From positions 1 to 64,000 of the forward strand of contig CALQFM020000009.1 in the NCBI GenBank assembly GCA_943329845.2: a stretch of DNA of 64,000 bases, read 5' to 3'. The notes below the pieces were generated by a model. That model was not told the DNA's origin. It saw nothing but the letters and a program-made list of their open reading frames with translations, and did no database searches. How positions within the stretch are numbered: the first letter of the stretch is position 1; every line of letters starts with the position of its first letter. Below, in pieces: positions 51,791 through 63,116 of the stretch. The position numbers and the translations under genes are program-made. The stretch comes from Candidatus Kuenenia stuttgartensis (lineage in GTDB: Bacteria > Pseudomonadota > Alphaproteobacteria > SMXS01).

Positions 51791-52978
51791 ATGACGATCC
51801 CCGCATGTGACGGCTCCATGCGGATCGCCATGGTCTGCCACAGCACCCTGGGCGGCAGCGCGCGCAGCGCGGCACGGCTCGCGGCCGGACTCGCCCATCG
51901 CGGACACGCCGTGCACCTGATCAGCCGGGCCGCGTTGCCGTGGCCGGTGGACGACGCCGTCAGCCATCACCGCCTCGACACCGGCTCCATGGCGCTCGAC
52001 GATCCGTCGAGCACGCGCTGGCCGGACGCGCTGTTCGACCGTTTCGAAGCATTCATGCGACAGATCATCGAGCAGGAAGCCGTCGAGATCATGCATTTTC
52101 ACTACGCCGTGCCGTTCGCGCAGATGGGAGCGCGCCTTGCCGCGTCCGCGATGGGCGACCGGACCTCGGTCGTCGGCACGTTGCATGGCACCGACGTGAC
52201 CAAATCCACAAGCGCCTCCGCGAGGGACCCGCTCCGCGCCGCGCTCAGGCAGGCGGCGGCGCTGACGACGGTCTCGCACGCCCATGCGCGCCACGCACGC
52301 AGCCAGTTCGGCCTGGCTGCCGAACCGCGGGTGATCCACAACTTCGTCGGTGCGGACGAGCATCGGCCCGCAAGTCTGACGCGCGCGCGGCACCGCGACC
52401 GGTTGAGCAGGCCGCGGCTGATCCACGTCTCGAATTTTCGCGCCGTCAAATCGCCGGTGTCGCTCGCCGGCATATTCGCGCGGGTCAGGGAAAGTATGGA
52501 CGCGGAGCTGTGGCTTGTCGGCGACGGGCCTGAGCTGCCACGTGTCCGGGCAGCGCTCGAGCCGTCGGGCGATCATGTCCGGGTCTTCGGCATGCGCCGT
52601 GACGTGACGCCGCTGCTGGCCGAGACGGACCTGATGGTGCTGACCAGCCTGCAGGAGAGCTTTGGACTGGTCGCCCTGGAGGCCATGGCGTGCGGCGTGC
52701 CGGTGCTGGCGCCATGGGTGGGCGGGATTCCGGAGGTGGTCACCGACGGTGTCGCGGGCCTGCTGTTCAGGCCCGGCGACGAAATCGACGGCGCCGCCCG
52801 CGCGCTGGAGCTGCTGTCGGATCCGGAGCGGCACTGGGCCATGCGCGAAGGGGCGCTGGCGCGCGCCCGCGACTTCTCGGAAGCTCGGGTCGTCGCCGAG
52901 TACGAACGACTCTACCGGAGCCTTCCGCCCCGCCGCGGATCGAGTATGCCGCATCCAGACTACGCGGCCACATCATGA
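51791..52978 (+). CDS. bshA: GT4 glycosyltransferase resembling BshA
   Basis: A 395-aa GT-B fold enzyme. It matches BshA (GlcNAc-malate synthase of bacillithiol) at its characteristic stretches: the N-terminal GGSA loop (21-24), HFHYAVP (102-108), TLHGTDVT (130-137), VIHNFV (181-186), LIHVSNFRAVK (210-220), LVGDGPE (242-248) and ESFGLVALEAMACGVP (289-304, donor-binding Glu). It would join GlcNAc from UDP-GlcNAc to malate or a similar acceptor. MshA and generic GT4 enzymes are the alternatives. The next gene overlaps its stop by ATGA and two more follow in the same operon. Confidence 0.8.
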   Translation: MTIPACDGSMRIAMVCHSTLGGSARSAARLAAGLAHRGHAVHLISRAALPWPVDDAVSHHRLDTGSMALDDPSSTRWPDALFDRFEAFMRQIIEQEAVEIMHFHYAVPFAQMGARLAASAMGDRTSVVGTLHGTDVTKSTSASARDPLRAALRQAAALTTVSHAHARHARSQFGLAAEPRVIHNFVGADEHRPASLTRARHRDRLSRPRLIHVSNFRAVKSPVSLAGIFARVRESMDAELWLVGDGPELPRVRAALEPSGDHVRVFGMRRDVTPLLAETDLMVLTSLQESFGLVALEAMACGVPVLAPWVGGIPEVVTDGVAGLLFRPGDEIDGAARALELLSDPERHWAMREGALARARDFSEARVVAEYERLYRSLPPRRGSSMPHPDYAATS

Positions 52979-54165
52979 AGCCGATGAAGGACCTCGACGC
53001 GCTGCTGTCGACGCCGCGGGGCCGGGACTTCCTTCTGTCCAACGGTATCCATGCGGACGCGGCATCATTTCGCGCCGCGCTGTCGCCGCCGGAGGACGAC
53101 CGCCTGGCCCGCACGAGTGGCGCCGGTCACGGGCCTTTCGTTCACATGCATCAGCAGATCTATGTCGACTACCGCCCATCTGTGCTGGCCAAGGTGTTCA
53201 CGCTCGATGCCCTCGCAGAGGCGGGAGTTCATCCGGCATTCCTGTGGATCGACACCGACCGCGCTGCGTCCGACAAGCTGGCCTGCCGCTTCTACTGGCC
53301 GTTCGAGGGGGCCCTGCGCGCCATGAAGATATTGCCGCCCGGGTTGGGCTCTGTCGAAACCCGCTTCGCCCAGGTCGATCCACCGCGCACCTTGGCCGCC
53401 TACCGGCGGATCACCGCCTATATCCGGGGTGACAAACGCCAGCCGGAAGCGGCGGCGCTGGCACGGCTGTCAACGCTGCGGGCACATATGCTCGCCCGCG
53501 AAGCCGTGCCGCTGCGCGACTATGGGCTGGGCATGACCCACGCCCTGTTCACCGCCCATCTGGCGGTCGACCATCCCCATGTCGTGGTGTCCGATCTGCT
53601 TGAAAGGGGCTGGCTGACGCCGGCGATCGAGGATGTGCTCGCGGTGCTGCCTGCCGTGATCGCCGCGTGGAACGCGAGAGTAAGTTCGCTTAATGACGAC
53701 GGCATCGCCACCGCCGTCGGGAAACTGCCGACGGACTACCTGCCGCTGTATGTTTCGGATCCGGAGGACGGCGCAAGGCTGCGCCTGCGTCACGAGATCG
53801 CCGGCGCCGACCACTTCGCCACGGCTCAGGGGAACAGCGGACGCACCCTCCGCTACTTCCTCGGCACCCGCCGGCTGCAGCTCGACGAGCTGACGGAGAC
53901 GGGGCGCTGGAGCCCGGACGTCACCCTGCCCTTGCTGGCGAACGCGCTGTTCAGCGGCTGGGTGGCGGGCAGGAGTTCGGCGCTGTACGCGCTGGTTTTC
54001 AGGACGATCATGACCGACGTGCTCGGCGAACGCCCCATACCGATCCTGGTTCCCTGTCCCGCCGCCGATCCACGTCCGGCTGCAACCAGCCTGCTCCACG
54101 CCTATGTCACCGGCGCGGCGCTTTCCCGTCCGGATGCGCGCGCCGCATCGAGCGTGGCGTCATGA
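52975..54165 (+). CDS. unassigned protein, possible distant BshC
   Basis: A 396-aa soluble protein I cannot place with confidence. Residues 57-101 follow the layout of the BshC core: HQQ (59-61, compare GQQ), a Lys 12 residues on (K73), then PAFLWIDTDRAASDK (87-101, compare PVFWVAGEDHD). Near the C-terminus GWVAGRSSALY and ERPIPILVP recall the BshC GPGEINYW and PPVMPR region. It is about 140 residues shorter than BshC. BshC adds cysteine to GlcN-malate. Start ATG 52975 overlaps the upstream stop, and the next gene overlaps this stop, both by ATGA. The context favours a role in the same pathway. Confidence 0.55.
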   Translation: MKPMKDLDALLSTPRGRDFLLSNGIHADAASFRAALSPPEDDRLARTSGAGHGPFVHMHQQIYVDYRPSVLAKVFTLDALAEAGVHPAFLWIDTDRAASDKLACRFYWPFEGALRAMKILPPGLGSVETRFAQVDPPRTLAAYRRITAYIRGDKRQPEAAALARLSTLRAHMLAREAVPLRDYGLGMTHALFTAHLAVDHPHVVVSDLLERGWLTPAIEDVLAVLPAVIAAWNARVSSLNDDGIATAVGKLPTDYLPLYVSDPEDGARLRLRHEIAGADHFATAQGNSGRTLRYFLGTRRLQLDELTETGRWSPDVTLPLLANALFSGWVAGRSSALYALVFRTIMTDVLGERPIPILVPCPAADPRPAATSLLHAYVTGAALSRPDARAASSVAS

Positions 54166-54902
54166 CCGCCGGCATCGACATCCTGGCGTTCTCGCCACAC
54201 CCGGACGATGCGGAGATCGGCTGCAGCGGCGCGCTGATCCTGGCGGCACGAGCCGGGCAGCGAACCGGCATCGTCGACGTCACCGACGGCGAACGCGCGA
54301 CACGCGGCACGCCGGAGACCCGGAGCCTCGAGCGCGCTGAAGCCTCGCGGCGGCTGGGCCTTGCGACCAGGCTATCGCTCGGGTTGCCGGATACGCTGGT
54401 CGCCGTCGATGAAGACGCCCTTGGCCGCGTGGTTGAGGTGTTGCGGACCCTGCGCCCGCGTCTGGTGCTGCTGCCCTATCCGGAAGATCGCCACCCCGAC
54501 CACGGCGCGACAACCGAGCTGGTGCGGCGCGCGGTGTTTCTGGCCGGCGTGGGCAAGGCGTTCGAGGGAGCGGTTCACCGCGTCGGCGCCCTCGTGCACT
54601 ATATGATCCATGGTCCGTTTACGCCCAGCTTGGTCATCGATGTCAGTTCGGTCTGGGCCGAGCGCTGCCATGTGCTCGATGCCTATGGGAGCCAGTTCTA
54701 CATGCGCCAGGATTCCGGCGACGCAGCCGAGACGGCGCTTTCGCATCCCAGCTTCATGCAGGCGCTTGATGCGCGGGCGATTCATTATGGCGCCATGATC
54801 GGCGTGGTGCGCGGCGAGCCCTACTGGCAACCGGGTCCGGTTCCAGTGCACACCCTCACCGACGTGATCCCCGCCGCCGGCGGCTACCGGATGTTTCCCT
54901 GA
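54162..54902 (+). CDS. bshB1: LmbE/PIG-L zinc deacetylase resembling BshB1
   Basis: A 246-aa PIG-L fold enzyme. Zinc and catalytic motifs: HPDD (13-16) and HPDH (111-114). The run DILAFSPHPDDAEIGCSG, then GIVDVTDGERATRGTPETR and SLGLPDT, is the BshB1 pattern. BshB1 removes the acetyl group from GlcNAc-malate to give GlcN-malate. Alternatives are MshB or a mycothiol-type conjugate amidase. It overlaps the upstream stop by ATGA, and the ATP-grasp gene starts 2 bp after its stop. Confidence 0.85.
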   Translation: MTAGIDILAFSPHPDDAEIGCSGALILAARAGQRTGIVDVTDGERATRGTPETRSLERAEASRRLGLATRLSLGLPDTLVAVDEDALGRVVEVLRTLRPRLVLLPYPEDRHPDHGATTELVRRAVFLAGVGKAFEGAVHRVGALVHYMIHGPFTPSLVIDVSSVWAERCHVLDAYGSQFYMRQDSGDAAETALSHPSFMQALDARAIHYGAMIGVVRGEPYWQPGPVPVHTLTDVIPAAGGYRMFP

Positions 54903-54904
54903 AA

Positions 54905-56029
54905 ATGCCCAAACGCGGCGACACGTTCGGCGCGAGGATGGTGAAAGCGGTCGTCAGGTCGCGGATTATCATTGGCGCGCAGGACGCGGCGCTCAACAGA
55001 CGCTGGCGCAACGGACAACCCGACATCCTTCTGCTGCGCCATCCACAGAAGGGACCGTGGTTCTACCGGCAGTTTCTCGACTGGCTGGGAGCGAATTTCC
55101 CGCAGGTCCGGCAGCGTTTCGAGCTGGCGTTGCTGGGACAAGGCGACGCCATCGACCCATCGCGATACCGGCTGCTGGTTCCCTTGCTGCAGGATCCTGT
55201 CCAGGCCTGGTCGATGAAGGCTTATGCGCAGGCGTGCTCGCTCGCCGCCCGCTTCGAGGCGCAGGCCCTGCCTGTCGTCAACAAGCCGGCCGCCCTTGCC
55301 AATTCGGCCAAGAGCACCATGCTCGACACAACCCGCGCGCTGGGCATCAGGGCGGCGCGAAACATCCCCATCGGGTGTCCCGCCGACCTGCACCGGGCCG
55401 CCGGTGAACTCGGATATCCGTTCATCGTGCGCCCCGACCAGGGTCATGGACTGAAAGGGTTGCGCATCGAGTGTCACGCCGACATAGACAGGATCAGCGA
55501 GCGGGCGCTCCTGGCCATCGGCAAGCCTGTCGCTATCGAGTTCATCGATACGGTCAGCGCGGACGGCCTCTTCCGGAAGTTTCGCTATCTCGTGGCCGGA
55601 GACAATGGCGTGAGTGTTCACCTCATCGCATCGCGCCACTGGGAAGTCCGAGGCGACAGCAAGGTGCTGACCGCGGCGCTTGCCGCCGAGGAGCGGGACT
55701 TCATCAGTCGCCATAATCGCGACGCCCCGACCTTCGACGCGCTGGGACGGGCGCTCGACTTCGATTTCGCGGCTTTCGACTACGCGTATGATCCGGCAGG
55801 AAAGCTCGTCGTCTGGGAAGCCAATCCCTACCCGACCATCGTCTTCGGACGCGAGAGCGAGGCGCTCCGCTTCCGGACGGTCGCCGTCCACCGGTGCTTT
55901 GCCGCCATGGCGGCTCTCTATCTGTCCCGCGCGGGACTCGACGTACCTACGGAGCTGGCCGCTCTCGTCGACGATCCCGGCGGCGCGCCTGCACGCTGCG
56001 AGGTGCTCGCGGGTGCGCCTGCCCGTTAA
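54905..56029 (+). CDS. ATP-grasp ligase of the thiol operon
   Basis: A 374-aa protein with ATP-grasp features: NKPAALANSAKSTML (126-140; loop that often precedes the grasp in RimK/GshB relatives), LGYPFIVRPDQGHGLKGL (169-186; strand with Lys/Arg and glycine-rich flap), and the metal motif FDYAYDPAGKLVVWEANPYP (291-310; E305 and N307 as Mg ligands). Such enzymes join a carboxylate to an amine or thiol with ATP. In this operon it could add cysteine in place of BshC or an extra amino acid to the glucosamine-malate core. It ends 4 bp into the convergent GST gene. Confidence 0.7.
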   Translation: MPKRGDTFGARMVKAVVRSRIIIGAQDAALNRRWRNGQPDILLLRHPQKGPWFYRQFLDWLGANFPQVRQRFELALLGQGDAIDPSRYRLLVPLLQDPVQAWSMKAYAQACSLAARFEAQALPVVNKPAALANSAKSTMLDTTRALGIRAARNIPIGCPADLHRAAGELGYPFIVRPDQGHGLKGLRIECHADIDRISERALLAIGKPVAIEFIDTVSADGLFRKFRYLVAGDNGVSVHLIASRHWEVRGDSKVLTAALAAEERDFISRHNRDAPTFDALGRALDFDFAAFDYAYDPAGKLVVWEANPYPTIVFGRESEALRFRTVAVHRCFAAMAALYLSRAGLDVPTELAALVDDPGGAPARCEVLAGAPAR

Positions 56030-56720: not shown

Positions 56721-57011
56721 TCAGATGCTGGTGCCGGCGCGCTCGGCGGCCTGGGCGCGTGCTGCTTCCTTGTCCTTGAAGTACAGCGCGTTGATTCCGA
56801 TGAAATCCTTGGCCGCTGGCGGAATTTCGTGATCGGCAAAGATCGCGCCGACGGGACACGCCGAGACGCACACGCCGCAATCGATGCACTGTTCGGGCTC
56901 GATGAACACCATGCGGTCCTCGTCTTCCTGGTAGATGCAGTCCACCGGGCAGACTTCGATGCAGGACATGTCCTTGACGTCGATGCAGGCGTTGCTGATT
57001 ACGTAAGTCAT
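56721..57011 (-). CDS. fdxA: 7Fe ferredoxin
   Basis: A 96-aa ferredoxin, FdxA type. Cysteines: C9, C17, C21, C25 and C42, C45, C48, C52, with CIDCGVCVSACPVGAI as the second cluster motif. The C9-x7-C17-x3-C21 spacing fits a [3Fe-4S]/[4Fe-4S] protein. It is divergent from the P450 cassette, with 291 bp between them, and could be an electron donor to it, but FdxA genes occur widely as housekeeping genes. Confidence 0.9.
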   Translation of the reverse strand: MTYVISNACIDVKDMSCIEVCPVDCIYQEDEDRMVFIEPEQCIDCGVCVSACPVGAIFADHEIPPAAKDFIGINALYFKDKEAARAQAAERAGTSI

Positions 57012-57210
57012 AGCGTTCCCGAGCCTCAAGCTTGCTTGGCCGACCCGGCACGGTCGGCTCGTTTTTCCTCTTTCCGCGCCGTGACTGTACCATCTTGGCG
57101 GCGAAGCCACAGGCCCGAAAATGGCCTGGTGGCGGCCCGCGAAGGTGGTGATTTTCCCCTTACGGCGCGGCGTCATCCCGATGCGCGCATTACGCTCGCG
57201 AGGCCATGTC

Positions 57211-57257
57211 AAGTCAAGCATGACTTTATCGGCCGTTGCTATCGGGTGGGGTAAGAT
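57211..57257 (+). promoter_or_regulatory. Crp/Fnr-type dyad and -10 before P450 cassette 1
   Basis: AAGTCA-AGCA-TGACTT (57211-57226) is a perfect dyad with a 4-bp spacer, the geometry of FNR-type sites. TAAGAT (57252-57257) is a candidate -10 and no good -35 is present, as for an activator-dependent promoter. The dyad centre would be near -45. The same dyad occurs before cassette 2. Confidence 0.6.
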
Positions 57258-57302
57258 GTAACGTGCGTTCGGGGAAAAGTCAGCCTTGAACGGGGATATG
57301 AA

Positions 57303-58754
57303 ATGAATACGGAACCCTTCGCCTCGGTGTTCGCCCGCGCCATTGGCGCCGACGGCGGAGACGCCGTGGAAAAAGTGGCGGACGGCGACTTCCAGGACAT
57401 CTTCCCCCTGATGCCGGTGGGCCAGCGCGTCGACATGGGCACGGCCCCGGACGGCACGCCCCTGATCGACCCGCGCATCTTCTTTTCCGCGGAGTTCCGG
57501 CGCAATCCGTGGCCCTACTACCGGCTGATGCGCGACCACTATCCGGTCTATCACAACCAGCTCAACAACACCTATTACGTCACCCGCTACGACGACATGA
57601 CCGAGTGCTATTTCGACGACATCGGCTTCAACACCATCCCGAAGGGGTCGTCAAACGGCGTGCTGGGCAACGTCACCCACGAACTGAGCGGGGTCGAGCA
57701 CCGGCGCCGGCGAAACCTGTTCGGCCAGCACCTGGTCGGCAAGGCACTGGAAAATCGCGTGCCCGCCATCGAACGGCTGGCGCAGGAAATGATCGACGAC
57801 TGGGCCAATGTGGACGCGCCATGGTGCATCACCAACGGCAACGTCCGCACCATCGAGCTGGGCCAGGCCTTCGCCGACGCCTTCCCTGTCCGCGTGGTCT
57901 GCGACGTGCTGGGCTTTCCCATGGAGGCGCGCGACAACTTCGTCTACTGGTACAATTCGATGATGGGCGGGCTGGGCGCGTCCGAGACCCACAGGCAAGG
58001 GATGGAGGCGCGCCAGCATCTGGAGGACTTCGTCGAATCCATCGTCGAGGACCGCCGCAAGAACCCGACCTTCCTCTACGACAATGACGGCAACAATATC
58101 GGCAAGGACATCATCTCCAAGCTGTGCGAGAGCCAGGTGGATGGCGACTATCTGTCGACCGAGGAGATCACCGCGCTAATCGCGCTGGTGGTTGCGGGCG
58201 GCGGCGAGACGACGCGCGGCACGCTGATGAACATGTGGTACAGCCTGTTGCAGAAGCCCGATCAGGCCGAGGCGGCGCTGGCCGACGAGTCCCTGTGGGA
58301 CGCGGTGTTCCACGAGACGCTGCGCCATTCCAACCCGATCGGCGGCCAGCCACGGCACGCCACCTTCGACGTGCAGATCCACGGCACGACCGTGCCGGCC
58401 GGCTCGCTGATCGAGATGGTCAACTTCTCCGGCAGCCACGACGAGCGCATCTTCCACGACGCCGACAACTTCAACATCTTCCGGCCCGACCTCTACACCG
58501 GCAAGCTGCTGCGCAGCGGCTACCGCAAGGAGGGCAAGTGCAGTCACATGGCGTTTGGCGTCGGACCGCACATGTGCCCCGGGGCCTGGATATCCCACCA
58601 GGAAGCGGTGATCGGCTCGAAGATCCTGTCGCGGACCATGAAGAACCCGCGGATCAACCGCGACCGGATGCCCAAGGACATCGACGGTGTCAGCCTCGCG
58701 CCCATCGGCATCAACAAGACCCGCGAGCTGTGGCTCGATTTCGATCTGGCCTGA
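57303..58754 (+). CDS. cytochrome P450, cassette 1
   Basis: A 483-aa P450, long for a soluble bacterial member. It keeps all catalytic signatures: C-helix H133 with R137, I-helix AGGGETT (298-304), ExxR in HETLRH (338-341), and haem loop FGVGPHMCPG (418-427) with ligand C425. An N-terminal extension of about 50 residues (LMPVGQRVDMGTAPDGTPLIDPRIF) is shared with cassette 2. GGGGA precedes the ATG. The next gene, a P450-like partner without the cysteine, begins 10 bp after its stop. Substrate is unknown. Confidence 0.93.
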   Translation: MNTEPFASVFARAIGADGGDAVEKVADGDFQDIFPLMPVGQRVDMGTAPDGTPLIDPRIFFSAEFRRNPWPYYRLMRDHYPVYHNQLNNTYYVTRYDDMTECYFDDIGFNTIPKGSSNGVLGNVTHELSGVEHRRRRNLFGQHLVGKALENRVPAIERLAQEMIDDWANVDAPWCITNGNVRTIELGQAFADAFPVRVVCDVLGFPMEARDNFVYWYNSMMGGLGASETHRQGMEARQHLEDFVESIVEDRRKNPTFLYDNDGNNIGKDIISKLCESQVDGDYLSTEEITALIALVVAGGGETTRGTLMNMWYSLLQKPDQAEAALADESLWDAVFHETLRHSNPIGGQPRHATFDVQIHGTTVPAGSLIEMVNFSGSHDERIFHDADNFNIFRPDLYTGKLLRSGYRKEGKCSHMAFGVGPHMCPGAWISHQEAVIGSKILSRTMKNPRINRDRMPKDIDGVSLAPIGINKTRELWLDFDLA

Positions 58755-58764
58755 GGCGAGCCAC

Positions 58765-60135
58765 ATGAGCACTGAAGCGAAGCAAGCGGCCAAGCCGCCG
58801 GCCTACGGCGCAGGCGCACCCGACAAGGATGCCTTCACCGGGCGCAACGGCGTGCCGCTGTACACCCGCAACGGCAACCAGAACGACTACCGGACCTACG
58901 AGGTCTACCAGCGCGAGCGGGTCAAGGAAGCCACCGACAAGATCCGCCCGATCCAGCTGATCTCGCCCGAATTCATCAAGGATCCCTACCCGGTACTGGA
59001 AATCCTGCGCGAGAACTATCCGTTCTACCGCGACTGGCTGAGCAATTCGTTCTGGGTGACGCGCTACGACGACGTGACGTCGATCTTCACCGACGACGCC
59101 AATTTCGAGACCCGGCCCAAGCGCTGGTTCTACGGCATCGAGGACCTGGGCCGCGACCTGGGCCAGGAAGTGGCGCTGCTGACGGCGCAGGCCACCCGGA
59201 TCGACGCCAATGTCGAGCGCATCTCCCGCGAGATCGTCGAAGGCTTCAGGGACAGTGGCGGTACCGACCTGGCCATCGAATTCGCTGCGCGCCTTCCGCT
59301 GGAACTGCTCGCCTGCGTCCTCGACCTGCCGAGGGAGGATTTCCCCAAATTCGTCGAGCGGTACTGGCGCATGCAGCGCGGCGCCATGTGGGAGCCGAAG
59401 AGCCGGCAGGCCGGCCTGGGCGCTATCCAGGAGCTTGTCGAATATTTCAGGCCCATACTGGCCGCGCGGCGCGCCAACCCCGGGGACGACCTGGTTTCGG
59501 CGGTAGCGGCGCTCGATCCCGATGGCGGCCCAGCGACCGCCGAGGATCTGGTGGTGACGCTGCTGGAGCAGGACCACGAGACGCTGCATGGGGCGCTCGC
59601 CAACATGTGGTTCCAATTGCTGACGCATCAGGACCAGCTCGACCTGGTAAAGCGCGAGCGGCGCATGGTGAAATTCGCCTGGCTGGAAACGCTGCGGCAT
59701 TCGGCGCCTGTCGTCACCGCCAACCGCTTCGCGCGGCACGAGGTGGAGCGCTTCGGCCGGCTGATCCCGATCGGCGCCCTGCTGCACTGCTCGGCCGCCG
59801 CGGCCAACCGCGATCCGCGCCAATACAAGGACCCGGACAGGTTCATCGTCGGCCGCAAGGATCTGTGCCAGCGCGAGCCGCGCGGCCAGTACCGCGCCGA
59901 TGGTCTGCCGGCCGGCGTGGCGTTCGGTTTGGGCAAGCCGTCGAAGCACCCCGCGGTGCCCGAGGACCGGCCGCGCTCGCTTTACGCGCTCACCCGCGAT
60001 ACGGCGACGACGGCGTCGAACGTGCTGCTGGACATGGTGCCGGATATCAGGCTGAAGCCCGGCGCCACGCCGGAACTGCGCAGCCTGCGGCTGGGCGAGA
60101 TGCACACCTGCTGGAACCTGCCGGTGGTGTTCTGA
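58765..60135 (+). CDS. P450-fold protein lacking the haem cysteine, cassette 1
   Basis: A 456-aa P450 homologue. It keeps the fold and ExxR (ETLR, 308-311), but the haem loop reads FGLGKPSKHP (387-396), where the normal His, Cys and Gly are Pro, Lys and Pro. The I-helix acid-alcohol pair is changed to EQDHETLH (268-275) and the C-helix HxxxR is not seen. It should not bind haem as thiolate, so it cannot be a standard monooxygenase. Actinobacterial parallels (DesVIII, EryCII) are cysteine-less P450s that activate a partner enzyme. It probably forms a complex with the P450 upstream. Confidence 0.9.
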   Translation: MSTEAKQAAKPPAYGAGAPDKDAFTGRNGVPLYTRNGNQNDYRTYEVYQRERVKEATDKIRPIQLISPEFIKDPYPVLEILRENYPFYRDWLSNSFWVTRYDDVTSIFTDDANFETRPKRWFYGIEDLGRDLGQEVALLTAQATRIDANVERISREIVEGFRDSGGTDLAIEFAARLPLELLACVLDLPREDFPKFVERYWRMQRGAMWEPKSRQAGLGAIQELVEYFRPILAARRANPGDDLVSAVAALDPDGGPATAEDLVVTLLEQDHETLHGALANMWFQLLTHQDQLDLVKRERRMVKFAWLETLRHSAPVVTANRFARHEVERFGRLIPIGALLHCSAAAANRDPRQYKDPDRFIVGRKDLCQREPRGQYRADGLPAGVAFGLGKPSKHPAVPEDRPRSLYALTRDTATTASNVLLDMVPDIRLKPGATPELRSLRLGEMHTCWNLPVVF

Positions 60136-60159
60136 ACCGGCGGATTTCCGCCTTTATCC

Positions 60160-60204
60160 AGTCACGTGTGACTTTTGATTCATTGCCAATCCGGCATCCA
60201 GGAT
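60160..60204 (+). promoter_or_regulatory. Crp/Fnr-type dyad before P450 cassette 2
   Basis: CAGTCA-CGTG-TGACTT (60159-60174) has the same AGTCA-N4-TGACT core as the site at 57211. GGATGTA (60201-60207) lies about 35 bp after the dyad centre, within 1 bp of the matching AGATGTA (57254-57260) at cassette 1. The shared spacing supports a common activator. Confidence 0.6.
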
Positions 60205-60250
60205 GTAGGTTGGCACCATCTGGCCCAACCTGAACCGAATGAGGCCCCGA

Positions 60251-61717
60251 ATGGACTCCATCACCGCTTTTCTCAGCAATATCGTCGAGAATACCGACGC
60301 CAGGACGAGCGAGGGCGGCAGCCCTTCGCCAGCGCCCCGCGCACGGTTTGTCGCGGCTCACGACTTTCCGCTGATGCCCGTCGGCCAGGCCTGTGACATG
60401 GGGCATGCCCCCGATGGCACGCCGCTGATCGACCCGCGAATCTTCAATGCGCCGGAGTTCTTCCGCAACCCGTACCCGTACTACAAGATCATGCGGGACC
60501 ACTATCCGGTGTTCTTCGACAAGCTGCACAATTGCTACTACGTCACCCGCTACGACGACATCACCACCTGCTACTTCGATGACGAGGGCTTCAACACCAT
60601 CCCCAAGGGTTCGTCGAGCGGCGTGTTGGGCAACACCCAGCTGGAGCTGAGCGGCGTGGAGCATCGCCGCCGGCGCAACCTCTATGGCCAGCACCTGGTC
60701 GGCAAGTCGCTGGACAACCGCCTGCATGCCATCGAAAGCATCGGCGAGGAGATGATCGCCGACTGGGATAATCTGGACGAGAGCATCGTGCAGGACCGCA
60801 ACGGCGTCCGGAGCGTCGCCATCGGCCGCGCCTTCGCCAACGAGTTTCCGATCCGCGTCGTCTGCGACGTGCTCGGTTTCCCCAAGGAGTCCCGGAAGAA
60901 ATTCTTCTACTGGTACAATTCCATGATGTCCGGACTCGGCGGCTCGGAGACCCATCACCAAGGCCTCGAGGCGCGCCAGGACTTGGAGGATTATGTCGGA
61001 ACGCTGGTTGAGGAGCGCCGCGCGCACCCGACCTATCTCTATGATGCAGCCGGCAACCCCATTGGCAAGGACATCATCTCCAAGCTGTGCGAGACCCAGA
61101 TCGACGGCGACTATCTGTCGACCGAGGAAATCACCTCCAATATCGCGCTGGTTGTCGGCGGCGGCGGCGAGACCACCCGCGGCGCCATCCTGAACATGTG
61201 GTATCTTCTGCTGCAGCACCCGCAGCAGCTCGAAGCGGTGCTGGCCGACCCGGAGACCATGTGGGACGTGGCGTTCCACGAGACGCTGCGCCACTCGACG
61301 CCGATCGGCGGCCAGCCGCGTCACAACTCGTTCGACATCGAACTGCACGGCGTGAAGATCCCGGCCGGCTCGCTGGTCAACATGGTCGACTTCTCGGCCA
61401 ACCACGACGACCGCATCTTCAAGGATCCGGAAGTCTTCAACATATTCCGGCCGGACCTGTACAGCGGCAAGCTGCTGCGCAGCGGCTATCGCAAGGAAGG
61501 CCGCTGCAGCCACATGGCGTTCGGCGTCGGCCCGCATCTGTGCCCCGGGGCGTGGATTTCCCACCAGGAGGCGGTGATCGGTTCGAAGATCCTGCAACGC
61601 CACCTGAAGAATCCCCGCCTGAACGTGGACAAGATGCCGAAGGATTTCGACGGCAGCCTGATGCCGATTGGCCTCATCTCGGCCAAGGAAATCTGGATCG
61701 ACTACGACCTGAACTAG
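60251..61717 (+). CDS. cytochrome P450, cassette 2
   Basis: A 488-aa P450 closely related to the one at 57303 through its whole length (shared LMPVGQ, DGTPLIDPRIF, VEHRRRRNL, KDIISKLCE). Catalytic residues are intact: HRRRR (C-helix His and Arg), GGGGETT (I-helix), HETLRH, and FGVGPHLCPG with the haem Cys near residue 430. ATG 60251 is preferred over an in-frame ATG 12 bp upstream since GAGG lies between them. It is followed 10 bp later by its own cysteine-less partner. Confidence 0.93.
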   Translation: MDSITAFLSNIVENTDARTSEGGSPSPAPRARFVAAHDFPLMPVGQACDMGHAPDGTPLIDPRIFNAPEFFRNPYPYYKIMRDHYPVFFDKLHNCYYVTRYDDITTCYFDDEGFNTIPKGSSSGVLGNTQLELSGVEHRRRRNLYGQHLVGKSLDNRLHAIESIGEEMIADWDNLDESIVQDRNGVRSVAIGRAFANEFPIRVVCDVLGFPKESRKKFFYWYNSMMSGLGGSETHHQGLEARQDLEDYVGTLVEERRAHPTYLYDAAGNPIGKDIISKLCETQIDGDYLSTEEITSNIALVVGGGGETTRGAILNMWYLLLQHPQQLEAVLADPETMWDVAFHETLRHSTPIGGQPRHNSFDIELHGVKIPAGSLVNMVDFSANHDDRIFKDPEVFNIFRPDLYSGKLLRSGYRKEGRCSHMAFGVGPHLCPGAWISHQEAVIGSKILQRHLKNPRLNVDKMPKDFDGSLMPIGLISAKEIWIDYDLN

Positions 61718-61727
61718 GGCAACATCA

Positions 61728-63116
61728 ATGAGCACGACAGAAGCGACCCGGGCCACGCCAGGCGCCGGCAAGGCCCAGACTGAAGCTGCGCCCGAAGCGC
61801 CGAAGATCACCTATGGCCGCAACGGCGTGCCGATCACGCCCGGCGGCGTGACGGGCCACGGTTTCCGCACCTACGAAATCCATCAGCGCGAACGGCTCGG
61901 CCAGTCGACGGCCAAGATCAAGCCGGCGCAGCTTATTTCGCCGGAGTTCATCCGCAACCCCTACCCGATCCTGGACATCCTGCGCGAGAATTATCCCAGC
62001 TACCGCGACTGGCTGGAGAATTCCTACTGGATCACGCGCTATGACGACGTGACGTCGATCTTCACCGATGACGCCAATTTCGAGACCCGTCCGCGCCGCT
62101 GGTTCTACAACATCGCCGATTACGGCCGCGACCTGCGGCTTGAGCTGCCGGTGCTGTTCGCCCAGGCGAACGCTATCGACGGCAACGCCCAGGCGGTCGC
62201 CGAAGAGATCGTCGGCGACATCAGGGCAAAGGGCGGCGCCAATCTCGGCATCGACTTCGCCGCACGTTTCGCGCTGGAGCTGCTGGTCCGCCAGCTCGAC
62301 CTGCCAAAGGAAGACGCGCCGCTGTTCTGCGAACGCTACTGGCGCATGACCCACGGCTTCAACGTCGATCCGGTCGCCGAGCAGGACGGCCTCGCCGCCA
62401 TCCGCGAACTGACCGAGTATTTCCGCCCGCTCCTCGCCAAACGGCGCGCCAACCCGGGCGACGACCTTGTCTCGGCGATCGCGACGCTCGATCCCGCTGG
62501 CGGACCCGCTACGGCCGAGGATCTGGTGGTGACGCTGCTGGAAGGCGACCATGAAACACTGCATGGCGGCCTCGCCAATACCCTGTTCCTGCTGCTGACC
62601 AACGCGGACGAGTTCCAGAAGGTGAAGGAGGAGCGCCGCATGGCCAAGTTCGCCTTCCTCGAGGCGCTGCGCCACTCGGCGCCGGTGCTGTCGGCCCGCC
62701 GCTTCGCCCTGCATGAGGTCGAGCGCTTCGGCAAGCTGATCCCGGAAGGTGGCATGCTGATCTGTTCAGCCGGCGCCGCCAACCGTGACCCGCGCCAGTA
62801 CAAGGAGCCGGAGAAGTTCATCGTCGGCCGCAAGGATCTGTGCCAGCGCGAGCCGCGGGGCCAGTACCGCGCCGACGGCCTGCCCGCCGGCATCGCCTTC
62901 GGCCTCGGCAAGCCGTCGAAGCATCCGGCGGTGCCCGAGGACCGGCCGCGCTCGCTGTACGCCATTACCCGCGACACGGCGACGACCGCGCTCAACGTGC
63001 TGATCGACGGCCTGCCCGGCCTGCGGCTGAAGCCCGGCGCCAAGCCGGAGCTGCGCTCGCTGAAGCTGTGGGACACCCACACCTGCTGGGACCTGTCTGT
63101 GGAATTCGACAACTGA
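61728..63116 (+). CDS. P450-fold protein lacking the haem cysteine, cassette 2
   Basis: A 462-aa paralogue of the gene at 58765 with identical departures: FGLGKPSKHP in place of the haem loop, EGDHETLH in the I-helix, and ExxR kept (EALR). The runs RKDLCQREPRGQYRADGLPAG and KHPAVPEDRPRSLYA are shared almost without change, so this degenerate site is under selection and is not simple decay. The N-terminal 30 residues are low-complexity and differ. It is presumably an obligate partner or chaperone for the P450 before it. A terminator follows. Confidence 0.9.
   Translation: MSTTEATRATPGAGKAQTEAAPEAPKITYGRNGVPITPGGVTGHGFRTYEIHQRERLGQSTAKIKPAQLISPEFIRNPYPILDILRENYPSYRDWLENSYWITRYDDVTSIFTDDANFETRPRRWFYNIADYGRDLRLELPVLFAQANAIDGNAQAVAEEIVGDIRAKGGANLGIDFAARFALELLVRQLDLPKEDAPLFCERYWRMTHGFNVDPVAEQDGLAAIRELTEYFRPLLAKRRANPGDDLVSAIATLDPAGGPATAEDLVVTLLEGDHETLHGGLANTLFLLLTNADEFQKVKEERRMAKFAFLEALRHSAPVLSARRFALHEVERFGKLIPEGGMLICSAGAANRDPRQYKEPEKFIVGRKDLCQREPRGQYRADGLPAGIAFGLGKPSKHPAVPEDRPRSLYAITRDTATTALNVLIDGLPGLRLKPGAKPELRSLKLWDTHTCWDLSVEFDN

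Follow-up and report, generated by a model that had tools for sequence, protein, structure and literature searches.

A conserved pairing of a cytochrome P450 with a predicted haem-free P450-fold partner, beside a divergent ferredoxin gene, in Alphaproteobacteria

Two tandem P450 cassettes and a divergent ferredoxin gene

Reading of the open reading frames in the 64,000-nucleotide stretch of DNA analysed here (the window) revealed two tandem cassettes made up of four uninterrupted genes, all on the forward strand, each with a cytochrome P450 (A) followed by a P450-fold partner that lacks the haem-ligand cysteine (B). The first cassette consists of A1 (57303-58754) and B1 (58765-60135, 456 amino acids), and the second of A2 (60239-61717) and B2 (61728-63116, 462 amino acids). 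These genes lie where an original prediction, made from the sequence alone, had placed them (57303-63116), and the gap between A and B is indeed 10 bp in both cassettes. Going by orthologues, A2 probably starts at 60251 rather than at 60239. In colinear stretches of 300 bases, cassettes 1 and 2 are 75-81% identical at the DNA level, while protein identity amounts to 71% for A1/A2, 68% for B1/B2, and 29% for A2/B2; the whole A-B pair was duplicated as one unit, long ago.

A1 and A2 carry the full set of P450 signatures, i.e. an intact haem loop (FGVGPHMCPG in A1, FGVGPHLCPG in A2), ETLR, and the I-helix motif GGGET (GGGETT in A1), and both score above the cut-off of PF00067 (96.7 and 89.6 bits, respectively). 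Their closest solved structures by sequence are CYP134A1 (CypX) and related haem P450s. A and B are probably co-transcribed as one operon.

The original prediction had overlooked a third gene, which lies 291 bp from A1 on the reverse strand (56721-57011) and is divergent from cassette 1. According to Fer4 Pfam matches and orthologues, it encodes an FdxA-like two-cluster ferredoxin of 96 amino acids with a net charge of -10, which remains under the cut-off of both FdxA_Actino (103 bits, cut-off 125) and FdxA_Protbact (89 bits, cut-off 135). The locus has a ferredoxin gene near the P450, as class I systems do, and this ferredoxin is probably the electron donor to A. No ferredoxin reductase was recognised among the annotated genes of 49.9-63.1 kb or the conserved neighbours. 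A consensus scan of the 291 bp that separate the ferredoxin gene from cassette 1 (57012-57302) found no sigma-70-like promoter above chance, and nothing exceeded chance in a promoter and terminator scan.

Two further gene groups were observed in the surroundings. Upstream, at 51791-56029, lies a bacillithiol-like cluster with a BshA-like glycosyltransferase (270 bits, cut-off 273.7), a BshB1 deacetylase (237 bits, cut-off 182.5) and, at the expected place of BshC, two proteins without any Pfam or NCBIfam match (52978-54165 and 54905-56029); this cluster may possibly represent a novel low-molecular-weight thiol pathway. Past the window end, 2 kb downstream of the cassettes and on the opposite strand, an ordinary P450 of the same clade (FGMGQHFCMG; L009:10063-11382, corresponding to C9:65062-66381) adjoins a short-chain dehydrogenase gene, an arrangement that is kept in genome G002.

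Distribution and origin of the pair

Whole-genome searches of species representatives, several of them MAGs, identified 18 copies of B in 11 genomes belonging to three alphaproteobacterial families. The window's order accounts for 15 of these, spread over eight of its ten species; the remaining three are single copies in G099, G131 and G234, from two other families. All 18 have a cysteine-containing A gene directly upstream, at a distance of 3-26 bp, and no homologue of B with an intact cysteine was found among them. The fixed pairing with a true P450 that the original prediction had proposed, and had suggested looking for in other genomes, is therefore unbroken. No additional B was found in a 398-genome sample of the phylum, and a plasmid search returned ordinary P450s only (26-29% identity). 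Within the window genome, B1 and B2 are the only ones among 34 extracted P450-like ORFs that lack the haem cysteine. Moreover, distances among A and among B proteins co-vary (r = 0.68, 0/5000 permutations), part of which reflects shared species history, and exchanging the partners of cassettes I and II within genomes gave an equal or better fit in just 3 of 127 cases. As for P450 content, G000 has about 40 P450 genes in a genome of 3.68 Mb, and G099 and G131, other P450-rich members, likewise carry the A-B pair.

The ferredoxin follows the pair. All 11 genomes with the pair have an orthologue next to a cassette and divergent from it. In contrast, G001 (98% complete) and G004 (78%), two genomes of the same genus that have no pair, contain no more than ferredoxin paralogues with 46-49% identity, indicating that the conserved unit combines a ferredoxin and a P450 with its haem-free counterpart. 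Of the two cassettes of G007 and of G008, one (I) is located on another contig with no ferredoxin orthologue in the flanks examined, which for G008 extend over only 0.9 kb upstream. The ferredoxin is the sole universal neighbour of the pair. Genes for SDR, SnoaL-like, Rieske oxygenase, thiolase, enoyl-CoA hydratase and other P450 proteins are found near some cassettes; they fit a breakdown of lipids, terpenoids or steroids, and the substrate of A may be lipid-like. In three relatives a Rieske ring-hydroxylating oxygenase directly follows cassette II (L027:14425-15618, L034:15303-16496 and L029:14320-15534); the gene is absent from that place in the window genome.

A solo paralogue of A, 64-67% identical to it, occurs in G000, G001 and G004 (G000:C13:60626-61990, L035:2555-3997; L060:5979-7772; L061:2075-3523), with the loop FGVGPHFCPG, with EGLRCA after the K-helix where A has ETLRHS, and with neither partner nor ferredoxin alongside. 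Since it has no adjacent B in three genomes, P450s of the A type are not dependent on B by nature, and partner dependence, if real, would belong to the A lineage and not to the whole subfamily; the solo paralogue offers a natural comparison for such dependence.

In a maximum likelihood tree, B emerged as a single clade (support 100/100), A grouped with the solo paralogue (100/99), and both formed a joint clade with a third, ordinary P450 lineage of the same genomes (100/100), separate from all other P450s in the tree. The branching order of these three lineages received a support of 72/35 only, and AU tests kept the alternatives (p = 0.33-0.43). The dataset comprised no EryCII-type sequence. 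The placement of B as one clade within the local P450 subfamily indicates a single origin, from a member of that subfamily that lost its haem site.

The former haem site of B

The haem-ligand cysteine is missing in 18 of the 18 B copies. Its position is taken by K, R or I and the following one by H, F or Y, giving the loops FGLGKPSKHP, FGLGKPTRHP, FGLGAPTKHP, FGFGPPSKHP, FGLGPPSKFP and FGLGKPSIYP; both B copies of the window have the first of these, and the loops of A and B alike read as originally stated. Because both positions vary, no fixed replacement ligand is possible there, and this candidate was discarded. Two changes on which the original prediction was silent accompany the loss. The C-helix region (W/HxxxR), which contacts the haem propionate, is deleted in B, and the place of the Cys loop is taken by a longer, near-invariant segment, which in B2 corresponds to residues ~362-414 (62811-62969, forward strand; VGRKDLCQREPRGQYRADGLPAGIAFGLGKPSKHPAVPEDRPRSLYAIT) and is among the most conserved segments of B.

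The I-helix is altered as well (EGDHETLHG in B2, residues 272-280, 62541-62567, forward strand). The motif E[Q/G]DHETLHG had been quoted correctly, but its Glu-Thr is that of the canonical A/G-G-x-E-T and is thus retained; the true changes are the substitutions of Gly by Asp274 and of Arg by His279, and the variability of the Ala/Gly position. The position over the iron is occupied by Q, G, M, W, A or D, and the next residue, otherwise the conserved Gly, is an invariant Asp, so that the oxygen-activation motif A/G-G-x-D/E-T reads x-D-H-E-T/S in B, with E-T/S kept. The ExxR motif is preserved (ETLRHS or EALRHS), as had been claimed. Against PF00067, B2 scores 25.5 bits, slightly above the cut-off (22.8), and B1 19.7 bits, below it. 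As B has lost three independent determinants, namely its Cys loop, its C-helix and the small residue of the I-helix, we infer from these sequences that it does not bind haem and is not an ordinary haem enzyme.

B is nevertheless functional, as indicated by dN/dS values of 0.09-0.19, close to those of A (0.06-0.17). The 18 B genes are intact ORFs, with identities down to about 57% and 121 invariant columns. The original prediction had reached the same conclusion from the identity of the degenerate loop in the two copies of the window; that argument is weak on its own, the two being paralogues with 68% identity, and it is purifying selection and the 18-copy survey that carry the conclusion. These data also refute the possibility that B is a copy of A undergoing decay as a pseudogene, which the loss of the catalytic cysteine might have suggested, as does the peak of conservation at the former haem place.

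This peak is apparent from a conservation profile of twelve spread B sequences (mean pair identity 0.61), which rises to 0.85 at the I-helix segment (271-285) and to 0.79-0.85 at the Cys-loop replacement (376-420). In the I-helix, E272, D274, H275, E276, L278, H279 and G280 are invariant in the 18 copies, and residues invariant in B only include W95, W125, W205, E272, D274, H275, H279, F326, R333, C372, Q373, P376, H451 and C453. A further B-specific conserved element is the N-terminal RTYE..QR.R (residues 47-56). The best-conserved segments of B being the walls of the old haem site, this site appears to have been rebuilt and not left to decay. To judge from the sequences, such constraint leaves room for a rebuilt ligand or metal site, or for a surface in contact with A or the ferredoxin.

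Structure prediction was of limited help. AlphaFold models of B alone reached a pLDDT of 63.8 with 11 sequences, corresponding to a P450 fold of moderate quality, and failed with five (40.2). In the moderate model the key loop (373-409) and the C-terminus are below pLDDT 50, too weak to place residues, and Foldseek matched it to CYP134A1 with a probability of 1.00 and a TM(target) of 0.78-0.85. For the N-terminal segment of B, where confidence was low, no helix was predicted.

Possible roles of B and comparison with known systems

The genes of A and B are adjacent, always together, and copied together, and on these grounds we favour a role of B in a ferredoxin-fed complex, as a non-catalytic subunit dedicated to A or an activator of it, to which we assign a probability of roughly 0.57. 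The locus would then encode a three-component, class-I-like P450 system, in which the divergent ferredoxin would pass electrons to the haem P450 A, A would perform the oxidation, and B, a haem-free paralogue from the same P450 subfamily and probably from the same transcript, would bind A or the A-ferredoxin pair and either stabilise or activate A or help to form its substrate pocket. It would thereby act much as EryCII does on EryCIII, or as the degenerate subunit does in heteromeric steroid acyl-CoA dehydrogenases. Physical contact between A and B is presumed here from the pattern of pairing. What speaks against such a subunit is the existence of the solo paralogue of A, and that the segments most conserved among the B sequences are those of the old haem pocket, which a mere scaffold would not seem to need.

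The conservation of these segments is at the heart of a second, less likely explanation, that B works on its own as a ligand carrier or a catalyst other than an oxygenase, whose rebuilt pocket handles the substrate or product of A (by hydration, isomerisation, a lyase reaction, or delivery), the two genes being adjacent because both proteins act on the same molecule. It would account for the concentration of conservation at the I-helix (ExDHETLHG) and the replaced Cys loop, for the B-specific invariants E272, D274, H275, H279, C372, Q373, H451 and C453, and for the SDR, SnoaL-like, Rieske, thiolase and other P450 genes around some cassettes, as in a catabolic pathway. However, we know of no precedent for a haem-free P450 fold acting as a catalyst, and the low-confidence model is too poor to build a pocket. 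The resemblance of H275-E276-x-x-H279 to the HExxH of zincin-type metal sites is invariant, but required only one new residue, H279, since H-E-T is a common signature of the P450 I-helix (e.g. AGHETT of CYP102A1), which makes it a weak lead.

A more specific version is improbable, though worth stating: the haem pocket of B could have become a different conserved site, possibly binding a metal or small ligand, so that A and B would each catalyse one half of the same pathway step, with B as a non-haem enzyme derived from the P450 fold and A as the haem P450 to which it is firmly paired. From their conservation, the candidate residues of such a site may include E272, D274, H275, E276 and H279 of the I-helix, C372 of the new loop, and H451 with C453, which lie in the C-terminal turn that faces the substrate in P450s.

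It is quite unlikely that B is a docking or adaptor subunit that keeps the acidic ferredoxin beside A. The charge of the ferredoxin, the Arg-rich nature of the conserved proximal segment of B (net +2 to +4, as compared to 0 to +2 in A), and the co-occurrence of ferredoxin and pair would agree with this, but ordinary P450s take a ferredoxin without any adaptor, and cassette I of G007 and G008 stands apart from any orthologue of it in the flanks covered. Even less probable is an independent enzyme binding haem through another ligand: B has kept ExxR and the Glu-Thr of the I-helix and offers the invariant C372 and C453 as well as several invariant His, but its loop has no invariant ligand (KHP, RHP, KFP, IYP), the Arg/His of the C-helix is lost, and above the iron there is a residue that varies throughout and is in many cases bulky.

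Finally, we consider it highly improbable, and reject, that B activates a glycosyltransferase in the manner of the EryCII/DesVIII family and lies beside A only incidentally. Proteins of that family show the same loss of the Cys and the C-helix and an N-terminal extension, and B matches their family model, TIGR04515, weakly (78.7 and 79.0 bits). But the cut-off of this model is 343, B reaches a better score with the haem-P450 model TIGR04538 (115-121 bits), and it groups with local haem P450s, in agreement with the distinction drawn in the original prediction. The neighbour of B is a P450 in 18 of 18 cases, and no glycosyltransferase is conserved beside the pair across loci, the BshA-like gene of the window, ~4 kb upstream of A1, included.

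Haem-free P450 homologues acting as glycosyltransferase activators and catalytically dead subunits in other enzyme families are both already known. EryCII has a P450 fold without Cys ligand and C-helix, is the activating partner of EryCIII, and possesses an N-terminal partner-binding helix and a mobile haem region (PMC3391682). B resembles EryCII/DesVIII in lacking the same two elements, in having an extra N-terminal segment, with RTYE..QR.R at the place of the partner-binding helix, and in having a dedicated partner. In contrast, this partner is a P450 with its ferredoxin and not a glycosyltransferase, B belongs to an alphaproteobacterial P450 clade, and the haem-site segments that are mobile in EryCII are the most conserved ones in B. 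CYP134A1 (CypX, TIGR04538), the closest solved structure to B by sequence and, in the moderate model, by fold, is a self-standing haem enzyme, whereas B is 23-24% identical to it and has no haem site.

Outside P450s, the steroid acyl-CoA dehydrogenases ChsE1/2, ChsE4/5, Scd1AB and IpdE1-IpdE2 are formed by homologous subunits from adjacent genes, of which only one has the catalytic residue, and activity requires the heteromer (PMC8399759). Such half-degenerate alpha2beta2 enzymes likewise combine a live and a degenerate homologue in adjacent genes, as A and B do, in an unrelated fold and for dehydrogenation instead of P450 chemistry. A search of the open-access literature for a haem-less partner of a P450 gave the EryCII class only. 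If the subunit role that we favour is correct, B would be, within the searches made, the first case of a P450 homologue without haem that is dedicated to another P450, and the principle of a dead paralogue activating a live one would extend to the P450 superfamily.

Bacterial P450s are usually viewed as single-polypeptide catalysts supplied by redox partners. The locus resembles class I ferredoxin-dependent systems in its P450 with an adjacent FdxA-like ferredoxin, and differs from them by the addition of a third, haem-free P450-fold component. If B does extend the class I scheme by a third component, the failure of some recombinant bacterial P450s could be accounted for by the absence of an unrecognised partner.
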